From Candidatus Aminicenantota bacterium (GTDB taxonomy: Bacteria; Acidobacteriota; Aminicenantia; JAMOAD01), in contig JAMOUT010000089.1 of NCBI GenBank assembly GCA_027061995.1, positions 1-24,220 on the forward strand: 24,220 bases of DNA, in the 5' to 3' direction. Positions 5,316 to 14,368 of the stretch are shown here, piece by piece. A program made the position numbers and the translations under genes. The first letter of the stretch is position 1. Each line of letters begins with the position of its first letter. The notes beneath the pieces were generated by a model. The model ran no database searches and had not been told where the DNA came from. It saw only the letters and a list, made by a program, of their open reading frames with translations.

Positions 5316-6680
5316 TTATCTGTTTTTAACACTTTCATTCAGTCGGTTTGCCATTGTTTTCAGTTCATGAATCTCATCATAATTCAGATTACTTTTAAGA
5401 TATACAAAAGCGATTTTATTTTGAATAAGAGGGTCATCACTCTCTTTTAAAATACCTCTGTCAATAAGTTTTTGATAATCAGTTGTTTGCGGAATCGGTG
5501 AAAAATATGAAAATTTCACGGGAACTTTATATTTTGCTATAAATCTTATTGTTTTTTCAATATCTTCATATTTTTGCTCGGGATGTCCGAAAAGTATGTA
5601 TGTTTCCATTGTTTTCTTTTCAAACCCAGCTTTTTCGAGATTAAATATCGCTTTTTCATAATCATCGAGTTCAAGTTTAGGGGCAAGTTCATCAACAAGA
5701 TTTTCAACTCCCGTTTCCAAACTTAACCTTAATGTTTTAAAATTGCTATCTTTTAACTCTCTCGCGGTGTCATAATCAAGCTCCTTTATATGAATCCCGT
5801 TAGGGGTATGAAAACTGAAATATAACCCTTTTTCTCTCAATCTCCTTAAAAGGGGCAATAATCTCTTTTTCTTATTAACAAGAAGAGCATCATCATAAAA
5901 AACCATATGTTCGACATTATATTTTTCTTTGTAAAAAGACAACTCCTCCACTAATGAATCAACTTGTTTTTGAAAGAATCTTCCCGAGAGTATGTTGGAT
6001 GCACAATAAGGACATCTGAAAGGGCATCCGAAGGAGGTCATAAAAGGGAGATAAGGATGTGTATTTTCAAGAGAATATAATGGATAAGGGAGTTCTCCGA
6101 TATTATTAAAAACAGGAAACTCCTTTACTTCAAATCCTCGCTCTTTTAGCAAAGGTAATAGATGATTTTCAAATCTTCCCGCTCCGACAAAATCAGCTCC
6201 CGACTCTTTTTCTGCGAATGATTTAAGCAAAGTGGGATATATCCCCCCGAGCCATACTTCAGATTTCGGATACTTATCTTTAATTATCTCTATGGCTCTG
6301 TGAACTCCCGGATACCAATATGTCATGGTTGAGCCAATCATATAAAGCTCCGCCTCCCCTATTCTCTCTATTTTTTCTCTGAAAATTTCTTCGGTAAATC
6401 CGTATCTTGCATAATTTCTCGGTATTTTCTTATATATCTCGGGTTTTTCTATTATCTCTCTGTGAAATTTACCTCTACCGTCAGCTCTCGGTTTCGGAAT
6501 TTTAATTTTTTCCCTTATATCTTTTGAGTGTCTGTCGAGAGTATCTATATAATAAAGTTTAACATTTCGGACAAACTTATCTGTGATTCCCGCAAGATAC
6601 AAAAGCCCGACAGGCTTCGCCCATAAATCATAAGCTGTAAAATCATATATCCACGGATTAATAAAAACTATCTTTTTCAT
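5316..6680 (-). CDS. B12-type radical SAM protein (B12-binding-like domain plus radical SAM)
   Basis: A 454-aa enzyme of the cobalamin-dependent radical SAM class by architecture. Residues 1-200 form a Rossmann-like domain with the PVGLLYLAG and GGIYPTLL elements typical of B12-binding domains. C219, C223 and C226 (FGCPFRCPYCAS) hold the 4Fe-4S cluster that cleaves S-adenosylmethionine, and the barrel continues through LRLSLETGVE and YILFGHPEQ. The base-off cobalamin motif DxHxxG is not intact: the nearest match is DRHSKD (residues 49-54), with Asp in place of Gly, so B12 binding is doubtful. Members methylate carbon or phosphorus or remodel rings; no substrate can be inferred. It lies 48 bp downstream of the HerA-type ATPase on the same strand and may share its transcript; its own ribosome site is poor. 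Confidence 0.85.
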   Translation of the reverse strand: MKKIVFINPWIYDFTAYDLWAKPVGLLYLAGITDKFVRNVKLYYIDTLDRHSKDIREKIKIPKPRADGRGKFHREIIEKPEIYKKIPRNYARYGFTEEIFREKIERIGEAELYMIGSTMTYWYPGVHRAIEIIKDKYPKSEVWLGGIYPTLLKSFAEKESGADFVGAGRFENHLLPLLKERGFEVKEFPVFNNIGELPYPLYSLENTHPYLPFMTSFGCPFRCPYCASNILSGRFFQKQVDSLVEELSFYKEKYNVEHMVFYDDALLVNKKKRLLPLLRRLREKGLYFSFHTPNGIHIKELDYDTARELKDSNFKTLRLSLETGVENLVDELAPKLELDDYEKAIFNLEKAGFEKKTMETYILFGHPEQKYEDIEKTIRFIAKYKVPVKFSYFSPIPQTTDYQKLIDRGILKESDDPLIQNKIAFVYLKSNLNYDEIHELKTMANRLNESVKNR

Positions 6681-9296: not shown

Positions 9297-10484
9297 ATGC
9301 ATTTTACACTACATTTAACAAGCGATTGTAATTTCAGATGTTCTTACTGTTATACTCCACCTCTTAAATCCGAAGAAATGGATATAAAAATATCTAAAAA
9401 ATCGATTGATTTTGCTGCTGAACTTTCTCCGGAAAATGCGGGGATTATTTTTTTCGGCGGGGAACCTCTTTTAAAAAAATCTTTGATTATTGATACGGTT
9501 GAATATGCAAAAACAATTCAAAAAAAAGGATTAGCCCGATTTCATTATAAAATAACAACGAATGGTCTTCTCTTAGACGAAGACCTTTTAGAATATTCAT
9601 TAAACAACTCAATGTATATAGGTATAAGCATTGACGGAATAAAAGAAGCTCATGACTATCACAGAAAAGATAAAAGAGGTAACGGAACTTTTGATAAGGT
9701 TATTGAAAAAGCTAAACTTCTGCTTGAATACCAACCTTATTCAAATACTCTAATGGTGGTATCTCCCGAAACAGTTGAATATTTTTATGATTCCGTGGTT
9801 TTTTTGCTTGATCTCGGTTTCAGATATATTATCGCCTCATTAAATTATGCGGGTGATTGGGATGATAATAAATTGCATCTTCTTAACAAACAATACAAAA
9901 AACTATCAAAATTATATGAAAAACTAACTTTAAAAGAGTATAAATTTTATTTTAGCCCTTTTGAGAAAAAATTGGCATCTCATATTATGGGGAAACAATA
10001 TAAAAATTTCGAATGCCACTTCGGAGTAAGGCAGATATCAATATCTCCGAGAGGTGATATATTCCCCTGTGTTCAATTCGTAAAGACAGACGGTTCAACC
10101 GATTCATACAAATTAGGTGATATTTGGAAAGGTATTGATTATACAAAACAGATGCATCTTTATAATAAATCAAGAAAACTTCAGAATACTTGTAAAAATT
10201 GTGCCTTTAAAAACAGGTGTGAAAACAGATGTGCGTGCATAAAATTTCAAACAACCGGAGCAATAGATAAAATTCCCCCTGTCCTATGCGAACATGAAAG
10301 GATAATTATCCCCATAGTTGACAAACTCGGAGAGAGATTGTATAAAAAAAGAGCTCCCATATTTATGCAAAAACACTATAATAGTTTTTACCCTTTGATA
10401 TCATTTTTTCAGGATATGGAAGAAGAGATAATCTCAAAAAATAATTATGAAAAAAGATATATTTCAGTTAAAAGGGAGAGGTGA
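9297..10484 (+). CDS. Radical SAM/SPASM peptide- or protein-maturase
   Basis: Iron-sulfur enzyme of the family that modifies peptides or proteins after translation (anaerobic sulfatase-maturase and sactipeptide-synthase relatives). With the start at ATG 9297 (AAGAGG 6 nt upstream) it has 395 aa. C11, C15 and C18 (TSDCNFRCSYCY) bind the S-adenosylmethionine-cleaving cluster; GGE at 54-56 and TTNG at 87-90 are the family motifs that follow. The C-terminal SPASM region is complete by eye: C240 and C258, then C299, C302, C308 and C312 as CX2CX5CX3C, with C314 and C331, enough for two auxiliary clusters. A GTG at 9261 would add 12 residues but lies upstream of the expected transcript start. It is the first gene of a four-gene operon and lies 3 bp before the candidate substrate. 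No separate RRE peptide-recognition gene is present. Confidence 0.9.
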   Translation: MHFTLHLTSDCNFRCSYCYTPPLKSEEMDIKISKKSIDFAAELSPENAGIIFFGGEPLLKKSLIIDTVEYAKTIQKKGLARFHYKITTNGLLLDEDLLEYSLNNSMYIGISIDGIKEAHDYHRKDKRGNGTFDKVIEKAKLLLEYQPYSNTLMVVSPETVEYFYDSVVFLLDLGFRYIIASLNYAGDWDDNKLHLLNKQYKKLSKLYEKLTLKEYKFYFSPFEKKLASHIMGKQYKNFECHFGVRQISISPRGDIFPCVQFVKTDGSTDSYKLGDIWKGIDYTKQMHLYNKSRKLQNTCKNCAFKNRCENRCACIKFQTTGAIDKIPPVLCEHERIIIPIVDKLGERLYKKRAPIFMQKHYNSFYPLISFFQDMEEEIISKNNYEKRYISVKRER

Positions 10485-10487
10485 TAA

Positions 10488-11306
10488 ATGAAACATAAAC
10501 CTGTTAAAAATTATACCGAACCTGTATATCCCAAACAAATTTTTTACCTTAAAAACCCTGAATCTCTTATTAAATTCATACCTCGAAAATGGATTACCAA
10601 TAAAATAACTCTTTTAACACTTGTAACATTCCTATCAAGCGGATTTGGTCCGGGATGTAAAAAAAACAAAAATAAAATCTCTTATAAATTCGTAAAATCC
10701 GTTAATAATGATAAATCAAAGAGAGAAAGGTTTAATAGTTTTGTCGCCCCGATTTTTATCTATGGCTCGGGCTCAGGTTCAATAGGATGTATTTCCGTGG
10801 CACCTCCCGTTTTTATCTCCGAGGCAGAGGCAATAGATATAATATATACTGAACTTAAAAATAATGGATTTGATTTTGATGTAAAATCAAAATTAATCAA
10901 AGACTTTTATCTTTATGAAAAGGGGATGCCTTACTATGATCGCACCGAACAAAAAATAAAGCATAAAAACAAAATAAAAGGACATCCCTTTTATTATGAT
11001 TTGTATAGTAAAAAATATAATCTCGGAATAAAATTTATTTCCGATTATAATTATGATGATATACTGGGAATCGGCGAAACAAGATTTTATTCAACCCTAC
11101 GAAGATATAATCTTATTAAAGCTGCTTCCGAACTAAAGGAAAAGTTAAAAAAATTAAAAAAATATAATTCCGCGATATTTTATGAGCCCATGATAAGATC
11201 GGAAACAAGTTATGAAGACTCGATAAAAAAAGAGAAAGAGGCTCTGAGAAAACAAGTTGCGGAATTTATTGTATGGTTTAAAAACAAGATAAACAATGAA
11301 AAATAA
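10488..11306 (+). CDS. Membrane-anchored protein with GSGSGSIGC motif, candidate substrate of the maturase
   Basis: A 272-aa protein that I cannot place in a named family. Residues 1-40 are a hydrophilic leader (PVKNYTEPVYPKQ and on). Residues 38-57 (NKITLLTLVTFLSSGFGPGC) are a hydrophobic segment ending in Cys, like a displaced lipoprotein signal or membrane anchor. Residues 86-118 hold VAPIFIYGSGSGSIGC, then VAPPVFISEAEAIDII, an unusual Gly/Ser run closed by Cys. The remainder is charged and helical, ending in LRKQVAEFIVWFKNKI (253-268). The only cysteines are C57 and C101. It starts 3 bp after the maturase with a GGGAGAGGTGAT ribosome site, so the two are surely cotranscribed. The role as substrate is inferred from position and composition. 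Alternatives are a periplasmic partner of the repeat proteins downstream or an unmodified lipoprotein. Confidence 0.6.
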   Translation: MKHKPVKNYTEPVYPKQIFYLKNPESLIKFIPRKWITNKITLLTLVTFLSSGFGPGCKKNKNKISYKFVKSVNNDKSKRERFNSFVAPIFIYGSGSGSIGCISVAPPVFISEAEAIDIIYTELKNNGFDFDVKSKLIKDFYLYEKGMPYYDRTEQKIKHKNKIKGHPFYYDLYSKKYNLGIKFISDYNYDDILGIGETRFYSTLRRYNLIKAASELKEKLKKLKKYNSAIFYEPMIRSETSYEDSIKKEKEALRKQVAEFIVWFKNKINNEK

Positions 11307-12774
11307 TAAGATTAATATTATCCTTTTATTTATTATCCTTATCACAATATCATGTTCGAAAGACAGATGGGATCCCGCGAGATACAGAGAGGAAATTTAC
11401 AAACATAGCAAAAGACAACAAAGGGAAGGAATCAGAACTCTCGGACTATTGAAAAATCCGCGAGATTACAATTTTCTTTTGGGATGCCTGTATTCAAACG
11501 ACTCCTTTATCAAAAGAAATACCATATTAGCAATAGGAGATTTCGGAGATAAAAGGGGGATTTCACCTCTTTTGGAGATATATTTTTTATCACCTTCCTA
11601 TTATTACGATAATATCAAGATATCTTTGTTGAAAATCGATAAAAATTGGAGAGATACAACCGAAGCTATGAAAAATTTTAAAAAATATTTACGGATAATA
11701 AATAAAACTTCCAAAATGAATTGTTATCGAAAAAAAGCGGCATTCAGGACAATGTTATTCATTGACAGTAAAAAAGCCTTGAAATACTCAAGAAAATTTA
11801 TAGAGAATAAGGAGTCTTGTCTTATTGCCGAAAGTGCAAAAAATCTCTTGAATTTCAATATGGTTAACCAAACCGATAATCTGATAAATTCAATTGAGTT
11901 AATATATAAAATCGGTGATTTCAAAGACTTGAACTCATTGATAAATTCAATTGGAAATTTTGATAAAAAATGGCATGAAAGTAAAAACGGAAAAAAGATA
12001 TTAAATCTAATACACGATTCAATAATTAAAAAAAAACAAAGGCTGAATAAGAAAGATATTTACATGTTAAGGTTTTTTAATGATAAAGATTATTTAAAAA
12101 TTCTTTTGAATATCATAAAAACAAATAATAAAGAGAGTGAAGCCGATAAAAGATCCATAGCCATAGAATCAATTGTAATGATGAAAACCAACCAATCTCT
12201 TGAATATATTGTCAGAGCTCTTGATTTGAAAAACAGCTCGATTACCGAAGAGATTGCTTTGTTATTAGGAAAGATAAAAGATAAAAGATACTACCCTTAT
12301 CTATTAAAGGTGTTTGAAGATAAAGATACGGTTTGGTGGCTCAGAAAATATATATTTTATTCGATGCTTAACATAGATAAAATCAAAACCCGTGATTTGA
12401 TAATAGATATGATAGAAAAAGAAAACATGATTTCCTCATTCACTTTTCTTATAAAAGACAGGAAAATATTTGATGCCATTAAAAATAATTTTAAAAAGAA
12501 CAAGCACCTTAATACGGAATATGCATATAGAACTGAAGATGATATGGTCGAGTTTTTCTCAAGCTTTAGAAAAAAAGATGACTTGGATTTTTTTATTAAA
12601 CTATTAAAACAATATGATGAAAAAAGCAGGGAATTTTCAGCTATGCTTCGTGTTCTCGCATATATTGCCGATAAAAGATTCAAACCTATTTTGAAAAAAT
12701 ATTCGAGCTCCGAAAGAGATGATTTAAAAACAATCGCCCTATGGGGATTAACAAGGATCGGATATGAAAAATAA
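11296..12774 (+). CDS. HEAT-repeat lipoprotein
   Basis: A 492-aa protein with the lipoprotein-like signal MKNNKINIILLFIILITISC, Cys20 being the likely lipidation site (the lipobox ITISC is loose). After it, helix pairs of HEAT type can be seen: around RREGIRTLGLLKNPRDYNFL and NTILAIGDFGDKRGISPLLE (residues about 40-95), again around IAIESIVMMKTNQSLEYIV and EIALLLGKIKDKRYYPYLL (290-340), and at the end (LRVLAYIADKRFKPILKKY, TIALWGLTRIGYEK). The middle is too divergent for me to count repeats. Such solenoids bind other proteins; here the place is probably the periplasm or outer-membrane face. It overlaps the gene before by 11 bp and the ankyrin gene after it by 11 bp, both without a strong ribosome site of the first, which suggests coupled translation. 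Confidence 0.75.
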   Translation: MKNNKINIILLFIILITISCSKDRWDPARYREEIYKHSKRQQREGIRTLGLLKNPRDYNFLLGCLYSNDSFIKRNTILAIGDFGDKRGISPLLEIYFLSPSYYYDNIKISLLKIDKNWRDTTEAMKNFKKYLRIINKTSKMNCYRKKAAFRTMLFIDSKKALKYSRKFIENKESCLIAESAKNLLNFNMVNQTDNLINSIELIYKIGDFKDLNSLINSIGNFDKKWHESKNGKKILNLIHDSIIKKKQRLNKKDIYMLRFFNDKDYLKILLNIIKTNNKESEADKRSIAIESIVMMKTNQSLEYIVRALDLKNSSITEEIALLLGKIKDKRYYPYLLKVFEDKDTVWWLRKYIFYSMLNIDKIKTRDLIIDMIEKENMISSFTFLIKDRKIFDAIKNNFKKNKHLNTEYAYRTEDDMVEFFSSFRKKDDLDFFIKLLKQYDEKSREFSAMLRVLAYIADKRFKPILKKYSSSERDDLKTIALWGLTRIGYEK

Positions 12775-14368
12775 AAAGAAAATATTGATTATTCTGATAC
12801 TGATATTTATTATTGTTTTTTTTAATAATTTTAAGAATCAACTGTTTTTCATAACCGCCAAAAACAAGATGTTTTTATTTTCCGATATTCTAATCAAATT
12901 AGGCGCTAACCCTGATTATTCCGAATATAAAGGGGAAAACATCCTTATATACGCTATTATAAACGGTAATAGAAAAATATTTGATTATCTTATCAATAAA
13001 GGAATTACTTTTAATCATAATGATTCTTCGGGAAGAAACCCTCTAATCTTAGCCATAATAAATAAAAGATACGAGTTCATAAAAATTATTCTTAAAAAAA
13101 TTAAGAACATCAATAATACTGATACAAATCAAAAAACGCCTCTTTTTTATGCGGTTAAATCAAAAGATAAAAAAGCCATAAAAATGCTCATTAATTCAGG
13201 GGCAATAGTAAATGTAAAAACAGGTAATCATTATATTTTCGGACCGCTTCATCTTGCGGCAAAAGAGGGTTTTATATTTTTTATAAAAATCGCATCCGAA
13301 ATAAAAGGGGTTAATATTGATGCTCCCGATGATAAAAAGAGAACCCCGCTTCACTATGCTTGCAAATACGGAAATTCGGATATAGTAAAATATCTTATAA
13401 ACAGAGGAGCTAATATTGAAGCTCTCGATAATTCTAATCGGACTCCCATCTTTTATGCTTCACATTTCGGGCATTTGAAAATTGTAAAATTTCTAATTAA
13501 GAATAAAGCCAACATAAATCCCATATGTAAAGATAAAAAACATTGTTTTTCTCCTGTCTTTTCAGCAGCCGCTCAAGGACATAAAGATGTTGTGGAATAT
13601 CTTTATAAGAATGGTGCCGATATTAAAACAAAAAACTCATATGGTTTTAATCCGTTTTTTGCGGCGGCTGAAAACGGGAAAATACAAGTTCTCGAATACC
13701 TTTTATCACTAAAAATATTTAAAATAGATGATACAGACATATACGGAAGAACTCCTTTATTGGTAGCCGCTCAAAAAGGCCATCTTAATACGGTAAAATT
13801 TCTTAGGAAAAACGGTGCAAACATATTTTACAGAAATTATAATAATTTTTCCGAGTCTTTTTCCCCTTTCTTCGGAGCAATTGTAGGAAAAAACTTACAA
13901 CTGATTGAATATTTTATCAATCTCGGAGAGGATATAAACGGACAGAGCTACAGAGGAATCACTCCGCTTATAATAGCGGTTAAAAACAGAATATTCGGAG
14001 TTGCAAAATATCTGTTATCAAAGAGAGCTGATATAAATATCGCGGATTATTCGGATAATCCCCCTTTATATCATGCAATTGAAAATAAAGATTTCAGGAT
14101 GGTAAAACTTCTTGTTGACAACAAAGCTAATGTTAATTATAAGTTTGTCAATCATTATTACGACTCTATTCTTGAAGTCGCTTTTTTCGGAAAATCATTA
14201 CCAATAATAAAATATCTTGTGGAACACGGAGCTAATGTTAAAAATTATTATATTGTTCCTGATGATTATATTGAGATATCCGGTCACAATTATAAAAGAA
14301 TTGTAAAATACCTTGTTTCCAAAGGGGCAATATATATAAAACTTCCCCCATTGGAAAAAAATTATTGA
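12764..14368 (+). CDS. Membrane-anchored ankyrin-repeat protein
   Basis: A 534-aa protein. Residues 5-21 (KKILIILILIFIIVFFN) are a single membrane helix or uncleaved signal. From about residue 40 to the end run roughly 13 ankyrin repeats of 33 residues or so. The consensus is clear in KKRTPLHYACKYGN followed by SDIVKYLINRGANIEA, in NRTPIFYASHFGHLKIVKFL, and in GRTPLLVAAQKGHLNTVKFL. Some repeats have inserts (for example SESFSPFFGAIVGKN). The last repeats end at YLVSKGAIY, then a short KLPPLEKNY tail. It is the last gene of the operon, with a ribosome site AAGGA inside the HEAT gene. Repeat surfaces bind proteins; the partner is unknown. Ankyrin genes often serve as effectors or as immunity-like binding proteins, but nothing here decides between these. 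Confidence 0.85.
   Translation: MKNKKKILIILILIFIIVFFNNFKNQLFFITAKNKMFLFSDILIKLGANPDYSEYKGENILIYAIINGNRKIFDYLINKGITFNHNDSSGRNPLILAIINKRYEFIKIILKKIKNINNTDTNQKTPLFYAVKSKDKKAIKMLINSGAIVNVKTGNHYIFGPLHLAAKEGFIFFIKIASEIKGVNIDAPDDKKRTPLHYACKYGNSDIVKYLINRGANIEALDNSNRTPIFYASHFGHLKIVKFLIKNKANINPICKDKKHCFSPVFSAAAQGHKDVVEYLYKNGADIKTKNSYGFNPFFAAAENGKIQVLEYLLSLKIFKIDDTDIYGRTPLLVAAQKGHLNTVKFLRKNGANIFYRNYNNFSESFSPFFGAIVGKNLQLIEYFINLGEDINGQSYRGITPLIIAVKNRIFGVAKYLLSKRADINIADYSDNPPLYHAIENKDFRMVKLLVDNKANVNYKFVNHYYDSILEVAFFGKSLPIIKYLVEHGANVKNYYIVPDDYIEISGHNYKRIVKYLVSKGAIYIKLPPLEKNY

Follow-up and report, generated by a model that had tools for sequence, protein, structure and literature searches.

A radical SAM/SPASM maturase and a predicted surface-directed protein substrate form a conserved gene pair in three bacterial phyla

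Introduction

In a 24,220-nt stretch of DNA from a Candidatus Aminicenantota bacterium (the whole of which is called the window below), a gene for a radical SAM/SPASM maturase is followed on the same strand by genes for a 272-aa protein, a HEAT-repeat protein and an ankyrin-repeat protein. What does this maturase act on, and which of its neighbours belong to the same system? A preliminary description of the locus, made from the sequence alone, proposed a modified surface protein with solenoid partners and could match the layout to no described system. Comparison across genomes reveals that the conserved unit consists of genes 1 and 2, the maturase and the 272-aa protein. This pair proved genuine and conserved; in the libraries searched it has no name and indeed matches no described family, and searches of the open-access literature for the system or its nearest relatives gave no description of it. 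We propose, with a probability of about 0.72, that the two genes encode a dedicated enzyme-substrate pair, in which the maturase would bind the N-terminus of the 272-aa protein and modify a Gly-rich core in the cytoplasm before the protein is exported.

Results and discussion

Organization of the operon

The four genes and their products are arranged as follows.

9297..10484, + strand: radical SAM/SPASM maturase, 395 aa (PF04055, 70.1 bits, and PF13186, 27.4 bits, both above cut-off; cysteine table and alignment)
10488..11306, + strand: predicted maturase substrate, 272 aa, exported or anchored (no Pfam or NCBIfam family; adjoins the maturase in three phyla)
11296..12774, + strand: HEAT-repeat lipoprotein-like protein, 492 aa (PF13646, 55.5 bits), outside the conserved unit
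12764..14368, + strand: membrane-anchored ankyrin-repeat protein, 534 aa (PF12796, 261.9 bits)

As first described, the four reading frames share the plus strand and are separated, in order, by 3, -11 and -11 bp, with the HEAT gene overlapping the gene for the 272-aa protein and the ankyrin gene overlapping the HEAT gene. Both 11-bp overlaps have the identical ATGAAAAATAA arrangement, which suggests coupled translation at each. The HEAT_2 and Ank_2 Pfam models score above cut-off for genes 3 and 4. All three downstream products had been taken to be membrane-anchored or lipoprotein-like, and this is borne out for the HEAT protein, with its lipoprotein-like N-terminus (ITISC), and for the ankyrin protein, which has a strong membrane segment at its N-terminus. 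The hydrophobic segment of the 272-aa protein itself is only moderate and ends in GFGPGC57, which is not a canonical lipobox.

No Rfam elements are present in the whole window, and promoter-like and terminator-like sites are about as frequent as in shuffled sequence. A second radical SAM gene (5316-6680, opposite strand) is unrelated to the operon; its product has a long region N-terminal of the radical SAM core and was judged by eye to be of the B12-binding type.

The maturase is a complete SPASM enzyme distant from curated families

The radical SAM motif of the maturase, C11xxxC15xxC18, is accompanied by a complete SPASM set formed by C240, GX4C258, C299x2C302x5C308x3C312 and C331. These residues fit the patterns that define the class (CxxxCxxC for the radical SAM site and CX9-15GX4C-CX2CX5CX3C-C for SPASM), and the Pfam Radical_SAM and SPASM models both exceed their cut-offs, in agreement with the full radical SAM site and full SPASM cysteine set noted earlier. 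All of these cysteines are retained in 10 of 11 close maturase relatives in the alignment. Maturases paired with the long protein (11 relatives) share 38-55% identity with that of the window, and the family has its own C-terminal extension, LCExERIxIPIxDxLxExLYKKxAxFxQKHYN. One of the paired maturases (L089:5856-6968) keeps the radical SAM cysteines and has lost C240, C258, C312 and C314 from its SPASM part; it adjoins three divergent substrate proteins without the core cysteine described below.

Three curated profiles match the maturase best, each far below its own cut-off: the PapB ranthipeptide maturase (NF047865; 228.8 bits, cut-off 340), the SCIFF maturase (TIGR03974; 162.7 bits, cut-off 425) and QhpD (TIGR03906; 150.1 bits, cut-off 453). 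The rSAM_w_lipo model (TIGR04133), which by its name would describe a SPASM enzyme associated with a putative lipoprotein, reaches 69.5 bits, where 425 is the cut-off. A viperin-like role in defence was also rejected, as the prokaryotic viperin model gives 67.1 bits against an NCBIfam cut-off of 180 and the PADLOC pVip match of 68.4 bits reflects the common radical SAM core only. Among solved structures the best match is 5wgg (E 8e-59), which is CteB (PMC7876137).

The maturase and the 272-aa protein occur together in three phyla

A single-sequence scan of genome contigs returned no relatives of the 272-aa protein, and a profile was needed to reach them. That profile recovered Candidatus Fischerbacteria RBG_13_37_8 (G064), one Deltaproteobacteria MAG (labelled Myxococcota) and one Bacillota MAG, and a single-sequence search of 297 host-phylum genomes yielded one other genome, again G064, with three copies. 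Plasmid and viral collections gave no match. Altogether, relatives are found in 13 genomes (the window's own, G000, with G064, G406, G803, G407, G423, G506, G573, G583, G584, G646, G690 and G718) from three phyla, namely that of the window, Myxococcota and Bacillota. Each genome carries a single maturase, always of this family, with one to four copies of the protein, often in tandem, as expected of substrates served by a single enzyme. A copy adjoins the maturase in 12 of the 13, counting G506, where one TraX-like gene intervenes; in G407 the maturase contig breaks off within the last codons of a copy of the protein.

The co-occurrence runs in both directions. Among 391 genomes of a Bacillota class, 8 have a maturase of 578-659 bits and 8 have strong matches to the protein, and these are the same 8. 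G584 from this sample has a weaker maturase (415 bits) with three weaker copies of the protein directly upstream. In the window's phylum the maturase is confined to G000 and G064 among 396 genomes, and the protein, sought in a different sample of 297 genomes, occurs in these two only. Two Myxococcota genomes likewise have both genes side by side, and the maturase tree places the window with Fischerbacteria and these two Myxococcota (95/90). Throughout, the 272-aa protein is the only gene that adjoins the maturase in all lineages. The preliminary description had made adjacency across distant phyla the mark of a genuine pair and maturase homologues without the 272-aa protein the evidence against one. 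Adjacency held in three phyla, and homologues of the second kind occur only in a more distant branch, beside peptides with the same leader.

Several other arrangements were observed at these loci. Some copies of the protein do not lie beside a maturase (L002, L003, L053 and L060). The gene between substrate and maturase in G506 belongs to the TraX family (L059:975-1607, - strand), and in G646 and G583 the gene immediately after the maturase encodes an MsrA-MsrB methionine sulfoxide reductase fusion (L061:75-1034 and L062:3786-4733, both - strand; identified with Pfam in L062 and by eye in L061).

HEAT and ankyrin proteins are not part of the conserved unit

Might all four genes nevertheless encode one machine, in which a modified surface protein works with dedicated HEAT and ankyrin partners? 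The two 11-bp overlaps are what such a machine would predict, a HEAT gene directly follows the protein in L005 as well (with a 4-bp overlap), and no Ank_2 gene besides the ankyrin gene of the operon was found in the 2.36-Mb host assembly, which also has few HEAT genes. However, L005 is the sole recurrence of a HEAT neighbour, and the best Fischerbacteria match of the window's HEAT protein is another gene; on this ground a specific orthologous link between the two HEAT neighbours was rejected. The ankyrin gene appears at no other locus and was possibly acquired, Bacillota loci have neither gene, and repeat proteins are common in G064 (approximately 11 HEAT and 25 ankyrin reading frames, counted by hand). 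We therefore regard the four-gene machine as unlikely. The expectation that HEAT or ankyrin genes travel with the pair was not borne out, and of the modified surface protein with solenoid partners that was originally envisaged, the conserved pair stands and the four-gene unit does not. We see in the HEAT and ankyrin proteins probable local partners or passengers, co-translated with the pair, rather than core parts.

Other repeat proteins do occur nearby, since L015 has a gene for a TPR lipoprotein between its substrate genes, and L097 one for a WD40 protein directly upstream. Thus, repeat proteins are neighbours at four diderm loci, with four different folds among them, and at no Bacillota locus. 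This theme (HEAT, TPR, WD40) is suggestive, but it was noticed post hoc and lends no support to a fixed four-gene system. The L015 TPR gene, which follows a frameshifted substrate gene, is interrupted by a stop. Matches of the ankyrin protein to Dot/Icm effectors and to PADLOC PDC-M72A were dismissed as generic repeat matches.

A leader-like start and a Gly-rich core are the best conserved parts of the 272-aa protein

The 272-aa protein falls outside all Pfam and NCBIfam models. Alignment and structure prediction delineate the following parts in it.

10488..10595, + strand: leader-like N-terminus, residues 1-36 (Y9xxP12xY14P15 ... P24 ... L27 ... P32 ... W35)
10596..10658, + strand: hydrophobic segment, residues 37-57, with Cys57 as its last residue, where most relatives have a lipobox-like Cys
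10740..10823, + strand: predicted modified core, residues 85-112 (FVAPIFIYGSGSGSIGCISVAPPVFISE), from column identity and low pLDDT
10764-10790, + strand: GSGSGSIGC, inside the predicted core
10803..11303, + strand: folded C-terminal domain, residues 106-272, from AlphaFold2 models of the full protein and of a relative's domain

Across 20 proteins, mean column identity is 0.52 for residues 1-36, 0.33 for the hydrophobic segment, 0.19 for the linker, 0.54 for the core and 0.39 for the C-terminal domain, making leader and core the best conserved zones. The region ahead of the hydrophobic segment of a signal sequence is normally variable, and a conserved stretch at this position is unusual. In most relatives a lipobox-like cysteine closes the hydrophobic segment (for example, LGGC, LSAC, LCAC or TAAGC), and it is mainly from these family members that anchoring of the window's protein is argued; the Fischerbacteria proteins, too, are without a proper lipobox.

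The core usually reads HGxGxGxxGC followed by P-x-[FY]-[LIM]-[ST]-E and is predicted to be disordered up to about residue 107, with pLDDT below 50 over residues 47-107. Its GC is present in most family members in all three phyla; the cysteine is absent from the proteins of L016, L061, L062 and L089. A Myxococcota paralogue in G406 (L054:6530-7252, - strand) has an ordinary signal with no leader and no core cysteine and retains an intact C-terminal domain. This single case points to a link between leader and core. In L015 (4921-5767), the middle one of three tandem substrate genes is frameshifted immediately after its GRGATGC core. A Bacillota homologue (L089:2775-4544) is fused to a Cu_amine_oxidN1 domain, a fusion that we take as typical of surface proteins.

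Within the C-terminal domain, D171, F231, L253, Q256 and F260 are invariant. Structural comparison of the predicted domain gives Z 6.9 for I-Bth0305I (rmsd 3.2 A over 92) and Z 5.5 for Vsr, and a Vsr/DUF559-like PD-(D/E)XK fold may be considered a weak lead, the Z scores being below a level that is meaningful by itself. A Foldseek search of the PDB gave no match at E<=0.001, the viral library lists many nucleases at E 0.003-0.1, and the acidic residue in strand 2 of most relatives is Lys in the window's protein.

Short peptides beside sister maturases share the predicted leader motif

Seven Bacillota genomes carry sister maturases of 336-372 bits. At the six of these loci that could be read clearly, one to three peptides of 66-192 aa are encoded directly upstream of the maturase; in the seventh genome (G474, L093) the maturase gene is broken and no such peptide was identified. 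The short lipoprotein-like peptides lie at these positions.

L091:4302-5335, L092:5320-5804, L094:6770-7227, L095:6727-7459, L096:5130-5531 and L090:5092-5670: short lipoprotein-like peptides, upstream of sister maturases

The peptides, for which no Pfam family above cut-off and no NCBIfam match was found, read MKITPAKNYKKPLYAIG...TGC and similar. They begin with MKxxPxKxYKKPLYAIG and continue with Gly-rich repeats of the form hxLxG[DEG]xxV (for example, ELDGDVIV and QLAGEVDV), most of which lack a core cysteine. Their start aligns with MKHKPVKNYTEPVY of the window's protein, the common start being MKxxPxKxYxxPxY. YxxPxY occurs at residues 9-14, as it does in the long proteins, in 9 of 11 short peptides (shuffled mean 0.005), although the 11 comprise one clade and one outlier and are not independent. 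In the maturase tree, two changes are enough to set the substrate types apart, compared with 5.2 in shuffles. The C-terminal domain of the long proteins has no counterpart in the short peptides, and a common start without a common C-terminal domain points to recognition by the maturase. This pattern suggests a maturase-recognition leader that is built into the signal sequence.

The same motif bears on whether the 272-aa protein is the substrate at all. A maturase that acts on some other peptide or on a small molecule could use the protein as a membrane partner or carrier, and the predicted folded and conserved C-terminal domain is indeed unlike that of typical precursors. We consider this quite improbable, however, given that the protein alone adjoins the maturase in all lineages, that 2-4 copies can accompany a single maturase, and that its N-terminal motif reappears in the short peptides beside sister maturases.

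Proposed mechanism

Gene order, co-occurrence in both directions, the conservation of leader and core and the occurrence of the leader motif in the short peptides are observed, whereas the recognition, the site and chemistry of modification, the export route and the function of the enzyme-substrate pair are inferred and can be pictured as follows. Judging from its conservation, the N-terminus of the 272-aa protein is most likely where the maturase docks in the cytoplasm, such that the start of an exported protein probably directs the enzyme before export. Radical chemistry would then modify the disordered Gly-rich core, most likely by cross-linking it intramolecularly. The modified protein would leave by Sec, as a lipoprotein in most relatives, and cleavage at the lipobox cysteine would discard leader and signal together. 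Since one cut would remove both, no dedicated protease or exporter would be needed, and neither a subtilisin-like protease nor an ABC exporter, as found in QhpD operons, is present in the four-gene operon. The lipobox of the window's protein is degenerate, and the hydrophobic segment, left uncut, may serve as its anchor instead. A surface or periplasmic protein would result, with the modified core joining the membrane to the folded C-terminal domain.

A specific version of this mechanism is a ranthipeptide-like or sactipeptide-like thioether, in which the core cysteine (C101 in the window) is bonded S-C to a nearby residue. PapB, CteB and QhpD are thioether formers. With PapB, the SCIFF maturase and QhpD as the best profiles and CteB as the best structure, a cysteine thioether is plausible where the core cysteine is present, and the GC is retained in most members across three phyla. 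In addition, QhpD cross-links a protein subunit that is bound through its N-terminal leader before export (PMC7876137). Nevertheless, all three profile cut-offs are missed widely, and the Cys-X3-Asp/Glu motif of PapB substrates is absent, with no Asp or Glu at +4 in the window's core (GC-ISVAPPVFISE). Moreover, several family members, among them proteins beside related maturases, and most repeats of the short peptides have no such cysteine, so a core-cysteine thioether cannot be the only chemistry of the family. We consider this version possible, though we lean against it.

Comparison with known systems

The PapB system that makes freyrasin resembles the pair in having a stand-alone SPASM enzyme that starts at the radical SAM core and a precursor encoded next door. 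Its substrate, however, is a short Cys-X3-Asp peptide, whereas the predicted substrates here are proteins of approximately 200-300 aa that carry an export signal as well as a folded domain. QhpD is a SPASM enzyme whose substrate QhpC, the gamma subunit of QHNDH, has an N-terminal leader and is modified in the cytoplasm ahead of its export (PMC7876137). QhpC differs in that the QhpE protease frees it and the QhpF ABC transporter carries it out of the cytoplasm, whereas the leader here appears to be fused to the signal sequence. The substrate in the window matches no NCBIfam model, which also sets it apart from rSAM_w_lipo.

Bufferins and other MNIO-modified precursors offer a parallel to the fused leader, because a Sec or lipoprotein signal, rare among RiPPs, replaces the classical leader and some of the precursors are long (PMC12452194). 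MNIO enzymes work with DUF2063 partners, whereas the pair combines a radical SAM/SPASM enzyme with no partner protein gene. A broader formulation, to which we give about even odds, is that the family constitutes a SPASM counterpart to the MNIO bufferins. Such a widespread system would serve exported proteins and short peptides, mostly lipoprotein-like, whose leader lies ahead of the hydrophobic segment; signal peptidase II would remove both without a transporter or protease of the system's own, and the cross-link would possibly not be cysteine-based.

These data add an unnamed family of maturases and predicted substrates, present in at least three phyla, whose substrates would be protein-sized and directed to the surface. 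The arrangement would offer a simple route by which a radical-modified precursor sheds its leader and is exported without machinery of its own. The leader motif may also serve as a handle for finding more substrates, and it brings into the family a branch of short Gly-rich lipoprotein-like peptides that begin with the same leader.
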